From positions 744,001 to 808,000 of the forward strand of contig NZ_AUAC01000003.1 of assembly GCF_000428525.1 (NCBI RefSeq): 64,000 nt of DNA, read 5' to 3'. This DNA is from Hellea balneolensis DSM 19091. Lineage in GTDB: Bacteria > Pseudomonadota > Alphaproteobacteria > Caulobacterales > Maricaulaceae. Every line of letters begins with the position of its first letter. The first letter of the stretch is position 1. Under the pieces are notes generated by a model. That model saw only the letters and a program-made list of their open reading frames with translations, did not search any database and was not told where the DNA came from. Shown here in pieces: positions 35,209 through 63,671 of the stretch. Both the position numbers and the translations under genes were made by a program.

Positions 35209-36522
35209 GTGAATGCACCCGCTGACATAAAATCCTTCGCGGGCGGGCAGAATAAGCCCTTTGGCGCGGTCGAACGTATGATTGCTATGCGTTACCTCCG
35301 CGCTAAGAAAACCCAAGGCGGGGTAGGCCTCATTGCGGCAATTTCTTTCACCTGTATCATGCTCGCTATCGCCGCGATGATTATCATTATGTCGATTATG
35401 AATGGCTTTCGTGAGGACATGATACGCCTCACAATTGGCTCGGAAGGGCATATGTATGTTGCGTCTAGTAGCCCGCAACCTACGCCAGAGAGCGTTGATG
35501 CGCTTGAAAAACGCTTGGCGACGGTTGACGGCGTAGAAAAGTCATTTCAATTCACGCAGGATTTCACGGGGGTTCAAGCCAATGGTCAATTTGCGTTGGC
35601 GCAAGTGATCGGAATTTCGCCGCAAAATCTGCAAAGCTATGAGCTTATTTCTTACAGCGTCATTGCGGGTTCACTTCAAAACTTCGGATTAGGCCGGAGT
35701 AGTGAAAACCAGATCGCGATCGGTATTGGCCTCGCGAGTCAATTGGGCCTATCGGTAGGTGACAGATTATTGGTGTTTTCACCCCGAACCCGCCAAACCA
35801 TAAGTGGTCCGGTACCTGTCAAAAAAGCCTACACCGTAGGGGCTATTTTCCAAGTGGGGCTTTATCAAACCGACCTATCCTATATTTATATGGAGTTTAA
35901 TCAGGCGACCCAGCTCTTCGAAGGGGGCCGCGTGTCTGGCGAAATTCAGCTACGTCTTGAAAATCCGGATGACATTGATCGCTTGCAACGCCCTGTCACT
36001 GAGGCGGCGCAAGAGCCGATTTTCATCCAAACATGGAAAGACAGGAATGCCACGACAGCAACGGCGTTGCGCACGGAACAAATCGCCATGCGCTTCATCT
36101 TTATGATTGTGGTGATTATTGCCGCGTTTCCTGTGCTCGCCTCCATGATCATGCTTGTCAAAAACAAGTCCAAAGATATTGCGATATTGCGCACGATCGG
36201 TACGACCCAAGGCGGAATATTACGCATATTTTTTATGTCGGGCGCAATGATTGGGATATTGGGAACGCTTGTCGGATTGATTTTGGGCATTCTCTTTTGC
36301 CTAAATATCGGGGCCGTACAATGGGCGATAGAGACGGTGACTGGCACGGAGCTTTTCCCGGCTGATGTCTATCAACTCTCTGGCGGCATTCCGGCGAAAA
36401 TCGTCTGGTCCGAAGTTTTTGGCGTGGCCTTTTGGGGCTTTGTGATTTCTGCGGCGGCGACGTTCTTCCCCGCTTGGACAGCGTCTAAAATCGACCCTGT
36501 GGATGCGCTGAGGTATGAGTAA
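35209..36522 (+). CDS. lolC: Lipoprotein-releasing ABC transporter permease LolC/LolE type
   Basis: A 437-residue inner-membrane permease with the FtsX-like topology: one helix near the N-terminus (around VGLIAAISFTCIMLAIAAMIIIM), a large periplasmic domain, and three helices at the C-terminus. It extracts outer-membrane lipoproteins and hands them to LolA. A single LolC/E-like gene next to lolD suggests a homodimeric LolCD system. The GTG start abuts the proS stop; an internal ATG at 35278 (MIAMRYLRAKK) is an alternative start. Confidence 0.93.
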   Translation: MNAPADIKSFAGGQNKPFGAVERMIAMRYLRAKKTQGGVGLIAAISFTCIMLAIAAMIIIMSIMNGFREDMIRLTIGSEGHMYVASSSPQPTPESVDALEKRLATVDGVEKSFQFTQDFTGVQANGQFALAQVIGISPQNLQSYELISYSVIAGSLQNFGLGRSSENQIAIGIGLASQLGLSVGDRLLVFSPRTRQTISGPVPVKKAYTVGAIFQVGLYQTDLSYIYMEFNQATQLFEGGRVSGEIQLRLENPDDIDRLQRPVTEAAQEPIFIQTWKDRNATTATALRTEQIAMRFIFMIVVIIAAFPVLASMIMLVKNKSKDIAILRTIGTTQGGILRIFFMSGAMIGILGTLVGLILGILFCLNIGAVQWAIETVTGTELFPADVYQLSGGIPAKIVWSEVFGVAFWGFVISAAATFFPAWTASKIDPVDALRYE

Positions 36523-36527
36523 GCGTT

Positions 36528-37223
36528 ATGAATAGTTCTCGCCGCCCCATACTCTCCGTTCGCAATCTGCACCGCTCTTATCAATCGGGACCAAAGGCCC
36601 TGCATGTCATGATGGGGGCGGATATTGATATTTATCCCGGCGAGATGGTCGGGCTTATCGGGCCTTCGGGCTCGGGTAAATCGACCTTGCTTCATGCGGC
36701 CGGATTGCTGGAAAAGCCCAATGCGGGCGAAGTCTTTATCAATGGCCGGGAATGCCTGAAACTCCCCGATGATCAGCGCACAGCCATTCGCCGCGAGACC
36801 ATCGGTGTCGTCTATCAATTTCATCATTTGCAAAAGGAATTTTCCGCGCTGGATAATGTCGCCATTCCGCAGATGATAGCGGGTAAGAGCCATAAGCTAG
36901 CCGAAGCCGAAGCCGCACGCCTCCTTGGCATTATGGGCTTGTCCGAACGCTCTCATCACAAGCCCAGCCAGATGTCAGGCGGGGAACAGCAACGCGTCGC
37001 CATCGCCCGCGCAATTGCCAATAAACCGCAAGTCCTGCTGGCGGATGAGCCGACAGGAAACCTGGATCCAACAACTTCAGGCAATGTCTTTCAAAGCTTG
37101 TTTGACCTCACCCGGCTAGAAAGCGTCTCAGCTCTCGTCGCCACCCATAATATGGAACTGACAAAATATATGGATAGGGTACTGACCGTGCGGGATGGGT
37201 TGGTGGTTCCGTTTAATCGGTAG
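36528..37223 (+). CDS. lolD: Lipoprotein-releasing ABC transporter ATPase
   Basis: A 231-residue ABC ATPase. Walker A is GPSGSGKST, the signature is [15 protein letters not shown], and Walker B with the following D-loop region is [11 protein letters not shown]. It powers the LolC-type permease encoded 5 bases upstream. The MacB/LolD/FtsE subfamily is clear; LolD is chosen from context. It ends in a convergent region with an inverted repeat. Confidence 0.95.
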
Positions 37224-37224
37224 C

Positions 37225-37253
37225 GGTTGGTAAGCTGCTTTCAACAACCAACC
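37225..37253. terminator. Inverted repeat between convergent lolD and the ankyrin gene
   Basis: GGTTGGT and ACCAACC are perfect complements 15 bases apart. The repeat starts right after the lolD stop and is followed by TTT. It could act as a weak bidirectional terminator. Confidence 0.4.
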
Positions 37254-37266
37254 TTTCATATGAGTA

Positions 37267-37776
37267 TTATGAGTTGCCGAAATTAGCTAAAAACTCTACA
37301 GATTTGTTCTTTCCTAGATTTTTAGCCTCTTCTTCTGGGGTAGCATAACTATCTATACGAGTTCTTATCGTTCGGTCGGCAACTGCTTGAAGCAGTATTT
37401 TCATTGCTCTTTGATCCTCCCTGACTGCAGCCATGTGCAATGGAGTCCAATCATTTGTTCCATGAGCGTTCACATCAGCTCCAGCTTGGACCAGAAGCTC
37501 CAATATTTTGTACTTGTTAGGCAACGTACGGTCTATGGAATTATGAAGAGGGGTGTAACCTTCATCATCTCTAAAATTTAGCTCCACTCCTTTGGAAATC
37601 ATCCATTTAACAGTCTCTAATGACCCGCAATCAATAGCGTTTGTAATCCAATATCGCTCTACGAAGTTATCTTTTTCAAATGGAAAGCCACTTATAGCAA
37701 CTGATAAGGCTTCCAGTTTGCTTTCATCTGTATCCCTAAGTACTTCCAAAGCATCAACATATTCGTCGCCGTTCAT
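37267..37776 (-). CDS. Ankyrin-repeat protein
   Basis: A 169-residue protein with at least three ankyrin repeats: NAIDCGSLETVKWMISKGVE, then DEGYTPLHNSIDR with LLVQAGADVNAHG, then NDWTPLHMAAVREDQRAMKILLQ. An N-terminal stretch of about 45 residues does not match the repeat. No signal peptide is present. The base composition is visibly more AT-rich than the neighbouring lolD and permease genes, and it interrupts an otherwise conserved block, which suggests acquisition. Ankyrin repeats bind proteins; the partner is unknown. Short cytoplasmic ankyrin proteins are sometimes immunity factors, but no toxin gene is next to it. Confidence 0.85.
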   Translation of the reverse strand: MNGDEYVDALEVLRDTDESKLEALSVAISGFPFEKDNFVERYWITNAIDCGSLETVKWMISKGVELNFRDDEGYTPLHNSIDRTLPNKYKILELLVQAGADVNAHGTNDWTPLHMAAVREDQRAMKILLQAVADRTIRTRIDSYATPEEEAKNLGKNKSVEFLANFGNS

Positions 37777-37778
37777 AT

Positions 37779-39086
37779 TCAGCTCCTATTCAACCGCGCC
37801 GAAACCACATAAAACACTACACCCATCAATATAATCCCTAAACCACCCAACGCCTTATCGGGTTCATTTATCACCACAAAGGCCAGCATAAAGGCTGTAA
37901 TCGCCAGATAGACCAGCGGCACCACGGGATAGCCCCATGTCTTATAGGGACGGGGGAGGTCGGGCTCGCGGTAGCGCAGTACAAAAACACCCAAGATGGC
38001 GAGGAAGCTGTTCAGGGCGAGCATGGCGCCTGCAAAGACGACAATGGCCTTAAAGCTCGACGTTACGATATAAATCAGCGCGATGGCGGATTGGAAGTAA
38101 ATTGCATTGCGCGGAATGCCGTCTTTATTGACCTTGCCCAAAAACTTAAGCGCTTTGAAATCCTCGCCAATGGCTTGGAGCGCGCGTGGCCCGGCGAGGG
38201 TCATGGCGCTAACGGTGGAGATGAGGAGGAGCGAGAGCATCCCGCCCGCAATCCGCGCGCCTGTCTCGCCGAATATGCCTTTGGCGGCGATATAGCCAAT
38301 CTCGACTTGGCCTTCCATCGCCTCCATCGGCGCGGCGTAAAGGAAGACGTAATTGAGCAGCACATAAAGCGCCATCACGAGGCCTGTGCCAAATATGAGA
38401 ATACGCGGCAGATCACGCTGCGGGTTCTCAAGCTCGCCCGATATATAAACGGCGGCGTTCCATCCTGTATAGGCATAGGCGACATAAATCAGCGACACGC
38501 CGAAAGCGGCGCTGGTGATGATGTCCCAATCGCCCGCTTGCGGTAGTGGCGAGATGGGCTGCGGGTTTGAGGTAAAGATAAAGGCGGAGAGACAGAAAGC
38601 CAAAATCAGGATGACTTTGATGGCGGTAAAGCCATATTGGAACCCGCCACTGGCTTGGCGGTTGCGGCCATGGACGAGGGTGACGAGGATGACAAGTGCG
38701 CAGGCGAGGGCTTTGGCGATCCACGGCGCGTAATCACCGGGCAGGGCGGCTGTGCTATATGTCCCAAAAGCAAGAGAGACGGCGGCAATGGGAGCAGCGA
38801 AGCCAATCACGGCGGAGACCCAGCCTGAGATAAACCCGGCCATAGGGTGATAGATACGCCCCAAGAAATTATATTCCCCACCCGAGCGGGGCAGGGCCGC
38901 GCCAAGCTCCGCATAGGTCGCCGCGCCGCAAAGCGAGGCGATACCGCCGACAATCCAAAGCATCATAATCGCAAAGACGGACTGAATATCGACGAGCTGA
39001 AAGCCTAACGAGGTAAACACGCCTGTGCCGACCATATTGGCTACGATGACGGCAGTGGCCGTGTGGGGGCTGTAGAAACTCTTCAT
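37779..39086 (-). CDS. APC superfamily amino acid permease
   Basis: A 435-residue transporter with about 12 hydrophobic helices. The unwound helix-1 motif MVGTGVF and the helix 2-3 region (GAATYAELGAALPRSGGEYNFL) mark the APC (LAT/basic amino acid-polyamine) type. The substrate is not predictable. GC is higher than in the adjacent ankyrin gene. It ends 2 bases before the ankyrin start, so both could be on one transcript. Its start lies about 80 bases from the LexA box at 39166, but that promoter points the other way. Confidence 0.9.
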   Translation of the reverse strand: MKSFYSPHTATAVIVANMVGTGVFTSLGFQLVDIQSVFAIMMLWIVGGIASLCGAATYAELGAALPRSGGEYNFLGRIYHPMAGFISGWVSAVIGFAAPIAAVSLAFGTYSTAALPGDYAPWIAKALACALVILVTLVHGRNRQASGGFQYGFTAIKVILILAFCLSAFIFTSNPQPISPLPQAGDWDIITSAAFGVSLIYVAYAYTGWNAAVYISGELENPQRDLPRILIFGTGLVMALYVLLNYVFLYAAPMEAMEGQVEIGYIAAKGIFGETGARIAGGMLSLLLISTVSAMTLAGPRALQAIGEDFKALKFLGKVNKDGIPRNAIYFQSAIALIYIVTSSFKAIVVFAGAMLALNSFLAILGVFVLRYREPDLPRPYKTWGYPVVPLVYLAITAFMLAFVVINEPDKALGGLGIILMGVVFYVVSARLNRS

Positions 39087-39141
39087 AACTCCGTTTTGCG
39101 CAGGGTATTCGGCGCTGTCCAGATTATAAAAGAATCACTTA

Positions 39142-39169
39142 TTGACATATGGATAATTATGTATAGAAC
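39142..39169 (+). promoter_or_regulatory. Promoter of the SidA-like gene (Caulobacter-type consensus)
   Basis: TTGACAT is followed after 13 bases by TATAGAAC. This fits the Caulobacter housekeeping pattern TTGACGS-N10-14-GCTANAWC, and the spacing equals that of the lexA promoter in this window. The -10 element overlaps the LexA box. Confidence 0.7.
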
Positions 39170-39180
39170 AAAAAGTGAAC
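39166..39180 (+). promoter_or_regulatory. LexA box upstream of the SidA-like gene and dnaE
   Basis: GAAC-N7-GAAC, an exact match to the alphaproteobacterial LexA operator (GTTC-N7-GTTC read on the other strand). It overlaps the -10 element and the likely transcription start, so bound LexA would block the promoter. DNA damage should therefore induce the microprotein gene at 39231 and possibly dnaE behind it. Confidence 0.8.
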
Positions 39181-39230
39181 ATATACAGTATAGCGCAGTT
39201 TTCGCGCACAGTTTTATTTGGGAGGATACT

Positions 39231-39323
39231 ATGAAACAGATCGCACTAGATGTTACCACGGGACTGGTCATGGCAGGATTCGTCGGTGTTGCGACGATGT
39301 GGATGATGGTAATTGGGGGCTAA
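39231..39323 (+). CDS. sidA: SidA-like SOS-induced small inner-membrane protein
   Basis: A 30-residue ORF beginning MKQIALDVTT. It has a strong Shine-Dalgarno (GGAGG, 6 bases before ATG) and one transmembrane segment from about residue 9 to the C-terminus, which ends in Gly-Gly. In Caulobacter, SidA is a 29-residue inner-membrane protein induced by the SOS response. It stops division by acting on the FtsW/FtsN stage, and from memory its gene lies next to dnaE. The size, topology, LexA box and location all agree here. Sequence identity to Caulobacter SidA was not checked. It is 29 bases upstream of dnaE on the same strand. Confidence 0.75.
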   Translation: MKQIALDVTTGLVMAGFVGVATMWMMVIGG

Positions 39324-39352
39324 TAAGCCCCGATTAGAAGCGGAGGAAAATC

Positions 39353-42300
39353 GTGGCTAAATCGCCGATGTTTGTGCATCTCCGCTCCCGCTCGCCTTAC
39401 TCCATGCTTGAGGGCGCGCTTAAGATTAAAGAAACGGCCAAACGCGCACGCTCCATGCGTATGCCCGCTCTGGCGCTGACCGACACCAACAACATGTGCG
39501 GGGCGCTTGAGTTCTCCGACATAATGAGCGGTGAGGGCGTTCAGCCGATTATGGGGCTGACGCTGAGCCTTGATTTAGAAATTGACGATCAGCCGGGACA
39601 GCTTCGCAAAGACCCTGACGGCACAATAGCGCTACTCGCCCAGAATGAGGCGGGCTATGGCAATCTGATGACCCTAACCAGCGCGGCTTTTTTAGATGTG
39701 GACGCGACTGATTTACCCCATGTGAAATCTGCGCGTTTAGCCGATCATACAGAGGGCGTGATTGCGCTGACGGGCGGCCCTGATGGGGCGCTTAATAAGC
39801 TTATTTGCCAAGGTCGTTTGGATGAGGCGGAGAAATGGCTTGATCATCTGGCGGCGATATATCCGCAGCGGCTTTATGTTGAGCTACAGCGCCACGACCT
39901 CCCGCACGAGATAGAAGCCGAGAAGGTTCTCATTGAATGGGCCTATGCTAAGGGCCTACCCCTTGTTGCGACCAACGAACCTTACTTTATAGATCCCGAT
40001 ATTTATGAACCCCATGATGCACTCCTCGCGATGAATGAAGGGTCATATATCCTTGAAAAAGATCGCCGGAAACTGACGCGCCAGCATTATTTTAAGTCCT
40101 CCGAGGAAATGGCCGCTTTATTTAAGGACATCCCCGAAGCGGTTGAAAATACGATAGATATAGCTATGCGTTGTGCTTTTAAAGCGCATAAAAGAGCGCC
40201 AATTTTACCGAATTTTGGTGATGGCTCTTTAAGTGAAGGAGATATCCTCGCCCAGCAAGCCCGAGACGGCCTTAAAGCCCGATTAGAAAAAGTTGAACTC
40301 TCTGCCACAGAAGAGGAATATTACGCGCGCCTCGATTTTGAAATCGGCATTATCCGCAAGATGGGTTTTCCCGGTTACTTCCTCATTGTTTCGGACTTTA
40401 TCAAATGGGCCAAAGAGCAAGGCATTCCTGTCGGGCCGGGGCGAGGGTCGGGCGCGGGCTCTGTGGTGGCATGGGCGCTTTTGATTACCGATCTTGACCC
40501 CCTTAAATACGGTCTGCTTTTTGAGCGTTTCCTAAATCCCGAACGGGTCTCCATGCCAGACTTTGATATCGACTTTTGCCAAGAACGCCGCGGTGAAGTT
40601 ATCAAATATGTGCAGGAAAAATATGGTGCAGACCAAGTGGCGCACATTATCACCTTTGGAACGCTTCAAGCGCGGGCCGTGGTGCGCGATGTGGGCCGTG
40701 TCATGCAAATGCCGCTTGGTCAAGTAGATCGTCTTGCCAAACTCGTCCCGTCTAATCCCGCTAACCCCGTTACGCTTTCAGAGGCGATACAAATGGAAAA
40801 AGGCCTGCGCGAAGCTCGCGCCGAAGACCCGGCTGTGAATCGTCTGCTAACAACCGCGCTTAGCCTCGAAGGGCTTTACCGGAACGCCTCAACCCATGCG
40901 GCGGGTGTTGTGATTGGCGATCGTCCGCTGACCGAGCTTGTTCCGCTTTACCGCGATCCGCGCTCTGACATCCCCGCAACACAATTCACCATGAAATGGG
41001 CAGAAAAAGCAGGGCTGGTAAAATTTGACTTTTTGGGCCTGAAAACGCTGACCGTTATTGACAGGTGCATCAAATATCTAGCCAAACAGGGGGTAGATCT
41101 CGATATTGACGCTGTCAGTACGACAACGCCGGAAGCGTACAAGCCTTTGGCCGAGGGGTTATCGGCGGGTGTGTTCCAGCTTGAAAGTTCGGGCATGCGA
41201 GATGTTCTACGTAAAATGGCCCCTGATAGCATCGAAGAACTCACTGCGCTTATCTCGCTCTACCGTCCGGGCCCAATGAAAAATATTCCGATGTATATTG
41301 ACCGGAAATATGGTCGCGCGGATATCGAATATCCGCATGAGAGCCTCAAAGATATTCTCGAAGAGACTTACGGCGTTATCATTTATCAGGAACAGGTCAT
41401 GCAAATCGCGCAAGTTCTTTCGGGCTACTCGCTTGGCGAAGCAGACCTTCTGCGCCGCGCCATGGGTAAGAAAGACCAAGCCGAAATGGACCGGCAACGC
41501 TCCCGCTTCGTAGAGGGCGCGGCAGAGCGCATGAATGTCGATGCGAAGCTCTCCAATTCCATCTTTGATTTGGTCAATGAATTTGCGGGGTATGGTTTTA
41601 ACAAATCTCACGCCGCCGCCTATGCGATGATTTCATTCCAGACGGCTTATCTGAAAGCACTGCATCCGACCGAATTTATCGCGGCCATCATGTCCCTCGA
41701 TATCGCCAATGTCGAAAAGCTTGCGCAGTTTTTCCAAGAGGCCAAACGTATGGATATGACCATTCAGCCGCCTTGCGTAAACCGCTCTATGGCCGATTTT
41801 GATGTCGCGGATGGGGCCGTGCTCTATGCGCTAGGCGCGCTTAAAAATGTTGGCGTTGAAGCCATGCGCCATGTGGTCGAGGAGCGCGAGGCGAACGGCC
41901 CCTATAAAGACCTGTTTGATTTCGCCCGCCGTGTAGATACGCGGATTGTCAATAAACGTGCCTTTGAAAACCTTGCGCGGGGCGGGGCCTTTGATTGCCT
42001 AGAACCAAACCGTGCGCGTTCACTCGCATCCGCCTCCATCCTGCAACAAATCGGGTCCCGCGCTGCGCAAGAAAAAGAGAGCGCGCAGAACAGCCTCTTT
42101 GGAGATGCTCCCGAAACCATGGCCGAGCCGGAACTGCCTAATCCGCAGCCTTGGAGCAATGTGGAGCAGCTCGATCACGAGCTTGGCGCGATTGGGTTTT
42201 ATCTCGGCGGCCATCCGCTAGAGACTTTTCTTCCCGTGTTAGAGCGCAAAAAAGCTATCATGGCGGCAGATATTGACGACCGTTTTAAGGCGGGTGCGCG

Positions 42301-42808
42301 TAATATGCGGCTGGCGGGTGTTGTGCGTAAACGCCAAGAACGCATGAGCAAACGCGGCAAACGCTTTGCGTGGGTCAACATTTCCGATCCGACAGGAGAG
42401 TTTGAAGTTTTCTTCGGCGAAGAGCTTTTAGCCGTGAACCGCAATATCTTAGAAGCAGGCGCCCTTATCGAACTTACGGCAGAGGCCAAAGACCGGGAAG
42501 GCGAGATTAGCCTTTTTGCCAATACGGTGACATCGCTGGAGCTAACGGGCGAGGTGTCACTCATAAAAGGCCTGCAAATTCGCCTCCGCTCGGCGACGAT
42601 TGAAACTTTGGATGAACTTGAAAAAACACTTGAAACGCTTAAATCGGCGCCAGCCAAAACAACAGGTTATGTCGAAATTTTGGCCCCATTAGACGGTAGC
42701 CGCGAAGGCCATTGGCGATTGCCCGGCAAATGGGGAATTGATGCGTCGATACAGAAGGCAATTAAAGCGCATAGAGCGGTCGAGATGATAACCGAGATTG
42801 CGGCATGA
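39353..42808 (+). CDS. dnaE: DNA polymerase III subunit alpha (DnaE1 type)
   Basis: A 1151-residue replicative polymerase. It has an N-terminal PHP domain (MFVHLRSRSPYSMLEGALKI), GPGRGSGAGSVVAWAL, and the catalytic aspartates in MPDFDIDFCQERR near residue 402. The helix-hairpin-helix region and a C-terminal OB fold (LAGVVRKRQERMSKRGKRFAW) follow. Length and N-terminus fit DnaE1, not the shorter SOS mutasome DnaE2. GTG 39353 is the start, with GGAGG upstream. The 5' neighbour is the LexA-controlled microprotein gene; a housekeeping promoter specific for dnaE was not found, so partial co-transcription is likely. Confidence 0.97.
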   Translation: MAKSPMFVHLRSRSPYSMLEGALKIKETAKRARSMRMPALALTDTNNMCGALEFSDIMSGEGVQPIMGLTLSLDLEIDDQPGQLRKDPDGTIALLAQNEAGYGNLMTLTSAAFLDVDATDLPHVKSARLADHTEGVIALTGGPDGALNKLICQGRLDEAEKWLDHLAAIYPQRLYVELQRHDLPHEIEAEKVLIEWAYAKGLPLVATNEPYFIDPDIYEPHDALLAMNEGSYILEKDRRKLTRQHYFKSSEEMAALFKDIPEAVENTIDIAMRCAFKAHKRAPILPNFGDGSLSEGDILAQQARDGLKARLEKVELSATEEEYYARLDFEIGIIRKMGFPGYFLIVSDFIKWAKEQGIPVGPGRGSGAGSVVAWALLITDLDPLKYGLLFERFLNPERVSMPDFDIDFCQERRGEVIKYVQEKYGADQVAHIITFGTLQARAVVRDVGRVMQMPLGQVDRLAKLVPSNPANPVTLSEAIQMEKGLREARAEDPAVNRLLTTALSLEGLYRNASTHAAGVVIGDRPLTELVPLYRDPRSDIPATQFTMKWAEKAGLVKFDFLGLKTLTVIDRCIKYLAKQGVDLDIDAVSTTTPEAYKPLAEGLSAGVFQLESSGMRDVLRKMAPDSIEELTALISLYRPGPMKNIPMYIDRKYGRADIEYPHESLKDILEETYGVIIYQEQVMQIAQVLSGYSLGEADLLRRAMGKKDQAEMDRQRSRFVEGAAERMNVDAKLSNSIFDLVNEFAGYGFNKSHAAAYAMISFQTAYLKALHPTEFIAAIMSLDIANVEKLAQFFQEAKRMDMTIQPPCVNRSMADFDVADGAVLYALGALKNVGVEAMRHVVEEREANGPYKDLFDFARRVDTRIVNKRAFENLARGGAFDCLEPNRARSLASASILQQIGSRAAQEKESAQNSLFGDAPETMAEPELPNPQPWSNVEQLDHELGAIGFYLGGHPLETFLPVLERKKAIMAADIDDRFKAGARNMRLAGVVRKRQERMSKRGKRFAWVNISDPTGEFEVFFGEELLAVNRNILEAGALIELTAEAKDREGEISLFANTVTSLELTGEVSLIKGLQIRLRSATIETLDELEKTLETLKSAPAKTTGYVEILAPLDGSREGHWRLPGKWGIDASIQKAIKAHRAVEMITEIAA

Positions 42809-62973: not shown

Positions 62974-63606
62974 TTAGTGATATTTTCGCACTAACCCAAC
63001 TAAAATGCCTTGGACTTCGACGCGGTCGGGGCCGAATGTCTTTGTCTCAAAATCTTTATTTTCTGGAATAAGTTCAATGGTTTGTCCGGATTTGTAAATG
63101 CGCTTTAGCGTGGCTTCTTCTTGATCGACAAGGGCGACAACGATTTGGTTATTGCGCGCCGTATTGGCCTTTTTTACGATAACGATATCACCATCTAAAA
63201 TACCAGCTTCAATCATGGATTCGCCTTCAATTTCGAGAGCAAAGTGATCTGGACCCATCATATTGGGCGGAACAGAAATCATGTTATAGCTGTCTTCAAT
63301 CGCGGCAATCGGATTACCTGCCGCAATCTTACCGACAAAGGGCACTTCATAAGCGTCATTCGCCGCAACGGGAGCAGGGGCGGATGTGTAATCCTCAGGG
63401 AGTTTCAACACTTCCAGTGCGCGGGCTTTATTCGGGAGGCGGCGGATAAAGCCGCGTTCTTCGAGCGCCGTAATCAAGCGGTGAATACCCGACTTACTGG
63501 CAAGACCCAGAGCATCCTTCATTTCATCATAAGAGGGCGGAACCCCAACAGCTTTGATTTTACGATCAATCAGTAAAAGAAGGTCTTTTTGTTTTTGGGT
63601 TAACAT
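62974..63606 (-). CDS. lexA: SOS response transcriptional repressor LexA
   Basis: A 210-residue LexA. The N-terminal winged helix ([20 protein letters not shown] through [15 protein letters not shown]) binds GTTC-N7-GTTC. The autocleavage bond is Ala96-Gly97 in KIAAGNP, with catalytic Ser130 in EGESMIEAG and Lys168 in ATLKRI. RecA filaments trigger self-cleavage after DNA damage. ATG 63606 is chosen over an upstream TTG, which would lengthen the N-terminus unnaturally. A LexA box lies 37-51 bases upstream, so it is autoregulated. The position next to comEC is as I recall in Caulobacter. Confidence 0.97.
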
Positions 63607-63641
63607 CAGATAGACTCCGAACAAAGTGGCAACATTAATTT

Positions 63642-63671
63642 TGTTCTATAGATGTTCTTTGTGTTGTCAAG
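63642..63671 (-). promoter_or_regulatory. lexA promoter
   Basis: On the minus strand TTGACAA is followed after 13 bases by TATAGAAC, matching the Caulobacter housekeeping consensus. The -10 overlaps the LexA box. The arrangement is nearly identical to the promoter at 39142. Confidence 0.7.
63643..63657 (+). promoter_or_regulatory. LexA box controlling lexA (and possibly the divergent gene)
   Basis: GTTC-N7-GTTC, an exact alphaproteobacterial LexA operator, 37 bases upstream of lexA. It ends 6 bases before the -35 of a promoter facing the gene at 63725, so that gene may also be SOS-controlled. Confidence 0.9.

Follow-up and report, generated by a model that had tools for sequence, protein, structure and literature searches.

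A 30-codon gene between a predicted LexA operator and dnaE in Hellea balneolensis, a probable orthologue of the division inhibitor gene sidA

The region upstream of dnaE

The window analysed here is a whole stretch of 64,000 nucleotides from Hellea balneolensis DSM 19091. The NCBI taxonomy places the genus Hellea in the Maricaulales, Robiginitomaculaceae, and among named genomes the closest to that of the window belong to Hellea sp. MAGs (in two of them the N end of DnaE is 97–98% identical). A promoter, a LexA-type operator, an open reading frame (ORF) of 30 codons and dnaE follow one another on the forward strand (Table 1), with 29 nt between the end of the ORF and the start of dnaE. The first-pass annotation had described this arrangement as a perfect GAAC-N7-GAAC box overlapping a promoter, followed by a short ORF with a Shine-Dalgarno sequence and one membrane helix, and then by dnaE. 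The description holds: the box is exact, its first GAAC is also part of the -10 element, and the ORF has a GGGAGG before it, a helix predicted over residues 2–29 and the polymerase gene behind it.

Table 1. Features of the sidA-dnaE region and of the lexA locus in the window.
Feature	Position	Strand	Basis or remark
Amino-acid permease, upstream neighbour in opposite orientation	37779-39086	-	
Promoter as a whole	39142-39169	+	Read from the sequence
Promoter element TTGACA	39142-39147	+	Read from the sequence; 14 nt before TATAGAAC
Promoter element TATAGAAC	39162-39169	+	Last four bases are the first GAAC of the LexA box
LexA operator GAACAAAAAGTGAAC, exact GAAC-N7-GAAC	39166-39180	+	Predicted; recA and lexA of the genome are preceded by this motif too
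Shine-Dalgarno GGGAGG of the peptide gene	39220-39225	+	Read from the sequence; pre-start stretches of relatives
sidA-like ORF MKQIALDVTTGLVMAGFVGVATMWMMVIGG, 30 codons (ATG 39231, TAA 39321-39323)	39231-39323	+	Conservation, selection, AlphaFold2
Hairpin across the sidA stop codon	39310-39336	+	-12.8 kcal/mol, z -4.2 against mononucleotide shuffles
dnaE, DNA polymerase III alpha subunit, next cistron (GTG 39353)	39353-42808	+	NCBIfam PRK05673, residues 4-1144 of 1151
lexA, presumed repressor of the sidA operator	62974-63624	-	TIGR00498, E 1.1e-57
LexA box before lexA, presumed autoregulation	63643-63657	-	Motif scan

Since the permease lies on the opposite strand and lolD, the nearest large same-strand gene upstream, already ends at 37223, the promoter that serves dnaE is most likely located within 39087–39352. 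A strict sigma-70 promoter scan reported no promoter at the sidA-like locus, which is to be expected because the 14-nt spacing falls outside the range of 16–18; the Caulobacter promoter consensus presumably tolerates a spacing of 14 nt such as the one seen here. As for the surroundings, the stretch 35209–39086 of the window contains lolC/E-like and lolD genes. In several relatives lolD-like ends precede sidA-dnaE (by eye), and here an ankyrin-repeat ORF and the permease separate the lolC/E-like and lolD genes from the pair.

No terminator-like site was found at the hairpin that spans the stop codon of the ORF. This hairpin is marked in four of the 18 loci that are compared below (L001–L004, z -2.3 to -5.0, with differing stem letters) and is weak or absent in the remaining 14. 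A longer in-frame ORF with a GTG start exists (39063–39323, 86 aa); it was rejected as the gene start, as the sequences of the relatives align from the ATG at 39231. It must also be considered that the 64-kb window contains five GAAC-N7-GAAC boxes against 1.47 expected, and that two of 100 shuffles reach five, so that the box pattern by itself constitutes weak evidence.

Conservation of the short ORF and its SOS setting

When 61 genomes were searched with the peptide, 18 matches were obtained at E <= 4e-4, the window included (17 of 60 relatives), and all 18 loci have an exact GAAC-N7-GAAC box 19–50 nt upstream of the start of the ORF and dnaE after it. Box and peptide are also found together in all 16 named Hellea, Algimonas and Caulobacterales loci, which partly overlap the 18. 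In 24 genomes of four other families the best peptide match has an E value of 0.45. An alignment of 17 rows shows that Q3, D7 and W24 are invariant and that G16, F17 and V18 are nearly so.

For the two closest relatives, pN/pS is 0.08 against one (3 of 66 non-synonymous versus 12 of 21 synonymous sites) and 0.14 against the other; in more distant pairs, where synonymous sites are near saturation, it reaches 0.68. Conservation with a synonymous pattern, on which the first-pass annotation had staked its reading, is thus present, and the sequence comparison indicates that the amino-acid sequence is under selection and that the 30-codon ORF is a real gene. AlphaFold2 returns a single helix (residues 2–29, mean pLDDT 94.7), as it would for most peptides of this kind, and the hydropathy is 2.16; the predicted helix is long enough for membrane spanning. 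No model of Pfam or NCBIfam matches the peptide at E <= 1.

The extended motif GAAC-N7-GAACA occurs 28 times in the 3.2-Mb genome, as opposed to 13 times for a reversed control pattern. The genes that adjoin these boxes include recA (TIGR02012) and lexA (TIGR00498); ssb/uvrA, ruvC and Y-family polymerases were recognized next to others by visual inspection alone. Some boxes lie within genes and are probably due to chance. A TTGAC is located 24–29 nt upstream of the box in 15 of the 18 loci, the exceptions being L007, L016 and L018. Elsewhere in the Hellea genome, four ORFs that resemble small GIY-YIG nucleases (by eye; L261, L274, L276 and L279) start at LexA-type boxes.

Relationship to SidA and to other small inhibitors

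SidA is a 29-residue inner-membrane division inhibitor that is induced by the SOS response and interacts with FtsW and FtsN, and whose action is suppressed by ftsW and ftsI alleles (PMC4211646). In C. crescentus it corresponds to CCNA_02004 (PMC10769358) and dnaE to CC1926 (PMC1839093). Genomes of the C. vibrioides group were picked by a DnaN that is 100% identical to PDB chain 5wce. That chain we take to be the DnaN of C. crescentus, and we assume that sidA and dnaE adjoin in the published strain of this species. The choice was confirmed by the FtsW of the picked genomes, which has A31, F145 and A246, as the published mutants A31K, F145L and A246T require. Genus g29 was tried as Caulobacter and discarded, since its DnaN reaches no more than 82% identity along its entire length and 86% in a single partial match.

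In one genome of the C. vibrioides group (G181), an ORF of 29 residues lies between LexA boxes and dnaE. This ORF is matched in 72 of 75 Caulobacter genomes (weakest E 6e-4), and it lies before dnaE in all 30 Caulobacter loci inspected, 19 of which have an exact box; six of the other 11 were checked and have two near-boxes each. By length, operator and place, the Caulobacter ORF is identified as SidA.

The direct identity between the window peptide and the Caulobacter peptide is 17%, and short hydrophobic peptides readily converge. A comparison was also carried out between profiles. A set of 29 peptides of the window's family, intermediate sequences included (A2), aligned by hhalign with 11 Caulobacteraceae peptides (A3), gives a probability of 94.8 and a score of 30.2, the maximum of 300 column shuffles being 16.4; when the window side is restricted to its 17 closest peptides (A1), the score against A3 is 18.5, only marginally above the highest shuffle (17.0). 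The similarity covers residues 1–22, and intermediates such as MRRVLQDVSAATAILGFAWMITLWGSVLGAA link the pattern MKQ..D...GFV with MIR..E...GFVWM.

In whole-genome searches, the A2 profile missed SidA in G181 and recovered the ORF upstream of dnaE in four of 27 genomes (G660, G588, G544 and G050; in G404 and G411 of this set dnaE was unplaced). The A1 profile found strong matches (E <= 1.6e-11) in 34 of 398 genomes of the order, all of the window's family, and 133 genomes in all at E <= 1. The weak matches include true diverged copies before dnaE (for example G018, G034, G093, G013, G159 and G197) and others that fall inside long frames, and because of this mixture the place before dnaE was used as a criterion. 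Thirty residues give little signal, and the case for orthology to SidA is made by place, operator and profile jointly. In the comparison with Caulobacter SidA that the first-pass annotation had proposed, its suggestion that this is a likely SidA finds support in the position before dnaE, the operator, the length and a profile score above all shuffles; the low identity and the missed G181 speak against it.

The likeness to the C. crescentus system can be summarized as a peptide of 30 versus 29 residues with one hydrophobic helix, a LexA operator and a location directly before dnaE. The differences are that the C. vibrioides promoter (G181) has one exact box and then two near-boxes, whereas the window has one exact box, that the identity is low, and that FtsW residue 31 differs: in the FtsW of the window genome, the residues that correspond to F145 and A246 are unchanged and position 31 is F. 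FtsW A31K is described as a specific suppressor of SidA that probably prevents binding (PMC4211646); as this same residue differs in the window, a contact altered within the initial part of FtsW would, speculatively, be in keeping with a diverged peptide.

Among the other systems known, DidA of C. crescentus is also a small membrane division inhibitor, which acts on FtsN and, judging by suppressors, on FtsW/FtsI, but which is SOS-independent and activated by DriD (PMC4211646); assignment to the DidA type was rejected, given the exact LexA box at the window promoter. SulA (whose target is FtsZ), YneA, SosA, DivS and ChiZ resemble SidA in that they are SOS-induced division inhibitors, and are set apart by their description as unrelated genes (PMC4211646).

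The rival explanations were weighed on the same evidence. That the ORF is a chance frame beside a chance box would agree with the surplus of boxes in the window, yet this idea is already refuted by conservation, and selection and the shuffles described below also speak against it, so that it can be practically discarded. A leader peptide that controls dnaE by coupling or attenuation, devoid of an action of its own on the septum, is a second rival: the ORF lies upstream of dnaE wherever it was found here, often within 15–70 nt, its stop codon falls within a hairpin both in the window and in the nearest relatives, and two genomes (L055 and L060) keep LexA boxes before dnaE in the absence of a peptide, which suggests that the control of dnaE may itself matter. 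Nevertheless, the gap to dnaE varies from 1 to 297 nt, a marked hairpin (z -2.3 or lower) is confined to 4 of 18 loci, the amino-acid sequence is under selection, and the Caulobacter gene in the same place is, on the evidence assembled here, the proven division inhibitor sidA; taken together, these points make a pure leader very improbable.

The ORF could also encode another SOS-controlled one-helix membrane peptide that affects the membrane potential or other membrane functions and has only its place and regulation in common with SidA. TisB is an SOS-controlled peptide with one helix, as the window peptide appears to be; TisB and DinQ differ in that they are not known to be linked to dnaE and act on the membrane and not on the septum. 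DinQ demonstrates that SOS-controlled one-helix peptides of this sort exist (PMC3567139), and the identity of 17% to SidA leaves room for such a reading. It is very unlikely nonetheless, in view of the locus, operator and length held in common with SidA, the profile match above controls and the intermediates. We favour, with a probability of roughly 0.85, the interpretation that the 30-residue ORF represents sidA in a Hellea-type alphaproteobacterium and encodes a SidA orthologue, as judged by place, operator and profile.

Spread of the arrangement and its meaning

Relatives were scanned upstream of dnaE, as had been proposed with the first-pass annotation, and the succession of a LexA operator, a membrane peptide and dnaE was present in 37 of the 50 order genomes (from 52 chosen by us to cover genera, many of them for lacking a strong match; 50 gave dnaE). 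This number is composed of 23 genomes with an exact box that pass a script (ORF of 24–40 residues, hydropathy >= 1.5, exact box) and of 14 that were added because the conserved peptide is present in them: 13 in which all boxes are near-boxes (10 from the family of the window plus L062, L080 and L081) and L075, with two exact boxes and a hydropathy under the cut-off. In 100 dinucleotide shuffles of the order set, a box with a membrane ORF appeared 0.0 times on average, against the 23 of 50 observed. The near-boxes are paired 25 bp apart in the 10 window-family loci, for example GAACAAAAGGCGAAT and GAACAAAACAGGAAT, 18 bp apart in L080 and in the six Caulobacter loci checked, 16 bp in L062 and 26 bp in L081. 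These loci thus have tandem near-boxes in the position of the window's single exact box, and a strong operator and a group of weak ones seem interchangeable, the near-boxes being presumed to bind LexA. Tandem near-boxes with spacings of 25 or 18 bp are found in L039–L042, L044–L046, L051, L052, L067, L080, L173–L175, L182, L184 and L190.

The remaining 13 of the 50 order genomes have no such peptide upstream of dnaE. Two of the genomes with no peptide ORF, L055 and L060, retain an exact box upstream of dnaE, at a distance of 54 and 119 nt, respectively, and LexA control of dnaE may accordingly outlive sidA; L066 has a near box and no peptide, and all seven sampled genomes of the f2 family have neither the peptide nor an exact box within 500 nt of dnaE.

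Across the class, a non-random sample of 134 genomes was searched, 129 of which had a dnaE match, and the upstream DNA was examined in 89 of the 128 non-window genomes, selected broadly by dnaE score. The script is passed by 13 of these 89 regions (shuffle mean 0.01, maximum 1, in 100 dinucleotide shuffles) and the count rises to 15 when two genomes of family f13 (L134 and L135) are added by eye; these encode N-terminally extended SidA-like peptides of 47 residues, and the exact box that precedes them overlaps a TTGACA. The candidates fall in 12 families outside the order, and the peptides of the recurring arrangement range from 25 to 47 residues in order and class. Among 19 named loci outside the window's group there is one positive, Methylobacterium sp. 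B4, and in the Rhodobacterales records among them the arrangement is absent. A profile of 15 peptides, the class set plus that of Methylobacterium (A4), scores 33.1 against the window's family (maximum of 200 shuffles, 14.0) and 25.9 against the Caulobacteraceae set, where one of 200 shuffles scores higher (131.7, a value out of line that is possibly a parsing fault). The members of A4 align loosely and several of the 13 are hard to align, so that some of the class peptides could be fortuitous or unrelated even in the face of the shuffle counts.

A mechanism can be proposed on the model of Caulobacter. LexA bound at 39166–39180 would cover the -10 element and keep the gene off. It is well established that LexA is cleaved after DNA damage during the SOS response, and such cleavage would here lead to the synthesis of the 30-residue peptide, which would be inserted as a single helix into the inner membrane and, as in the model published for C. 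crescentus SidA, would hold the FtsW/FtsI/FtsN septal synthase inactive. Cells would in this way withhold division until repair. The same transcript probably continues into dnaE, in which case the replicative polymerase would rise along with the division block. Of this scheme, the operator, its overlap with the promoter and the order of the genes can be read directly in the DNA, and the subsequent steps are transferred from C. crescentus.

On a wider scale, we are inclined to think, with less assurance than for the Hellea gene itself, that SidA, far from being peculiar to Caulobacter, is an ancient checkpoint by which the SOS response arrests division in many Alphaproteobacteria. Its gene, of approximately 25–47 codons, would evolve rapidly and would have accompanied dnaE downstream of LexA boxes, so that polymerase and division brake would form one damage-induced operon. 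Some lineages would have lost the peptide and kept the LexA control of dnaE, and others would have lost both. To our knowledge, most Alphaproteobacteria lack a named SOS division inhibitor. In the literature searched, to which Erill 2004 and the original SidA publication do not belong, no SidA outside Caulobacter was encountered. The occurrence of a SidA orthologue in a further genus is ordinary in kind; its class-wide spread is the part that specialists may not expect, in what is apparently a widespread and overlooked family of SidA-like small genes.

The dnaE-anchored rule yields candidates from 12 additional families and from a Methylobacterium, and the diverged SidA/FtsW pairs constitute a natural series with which the contact responsible for shutting the septal synthase could be mapped. 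The arrangement also raises the question of why the gene of the replicative polymerase has a LexA-controlled promoter region in common with a division inhibitor.
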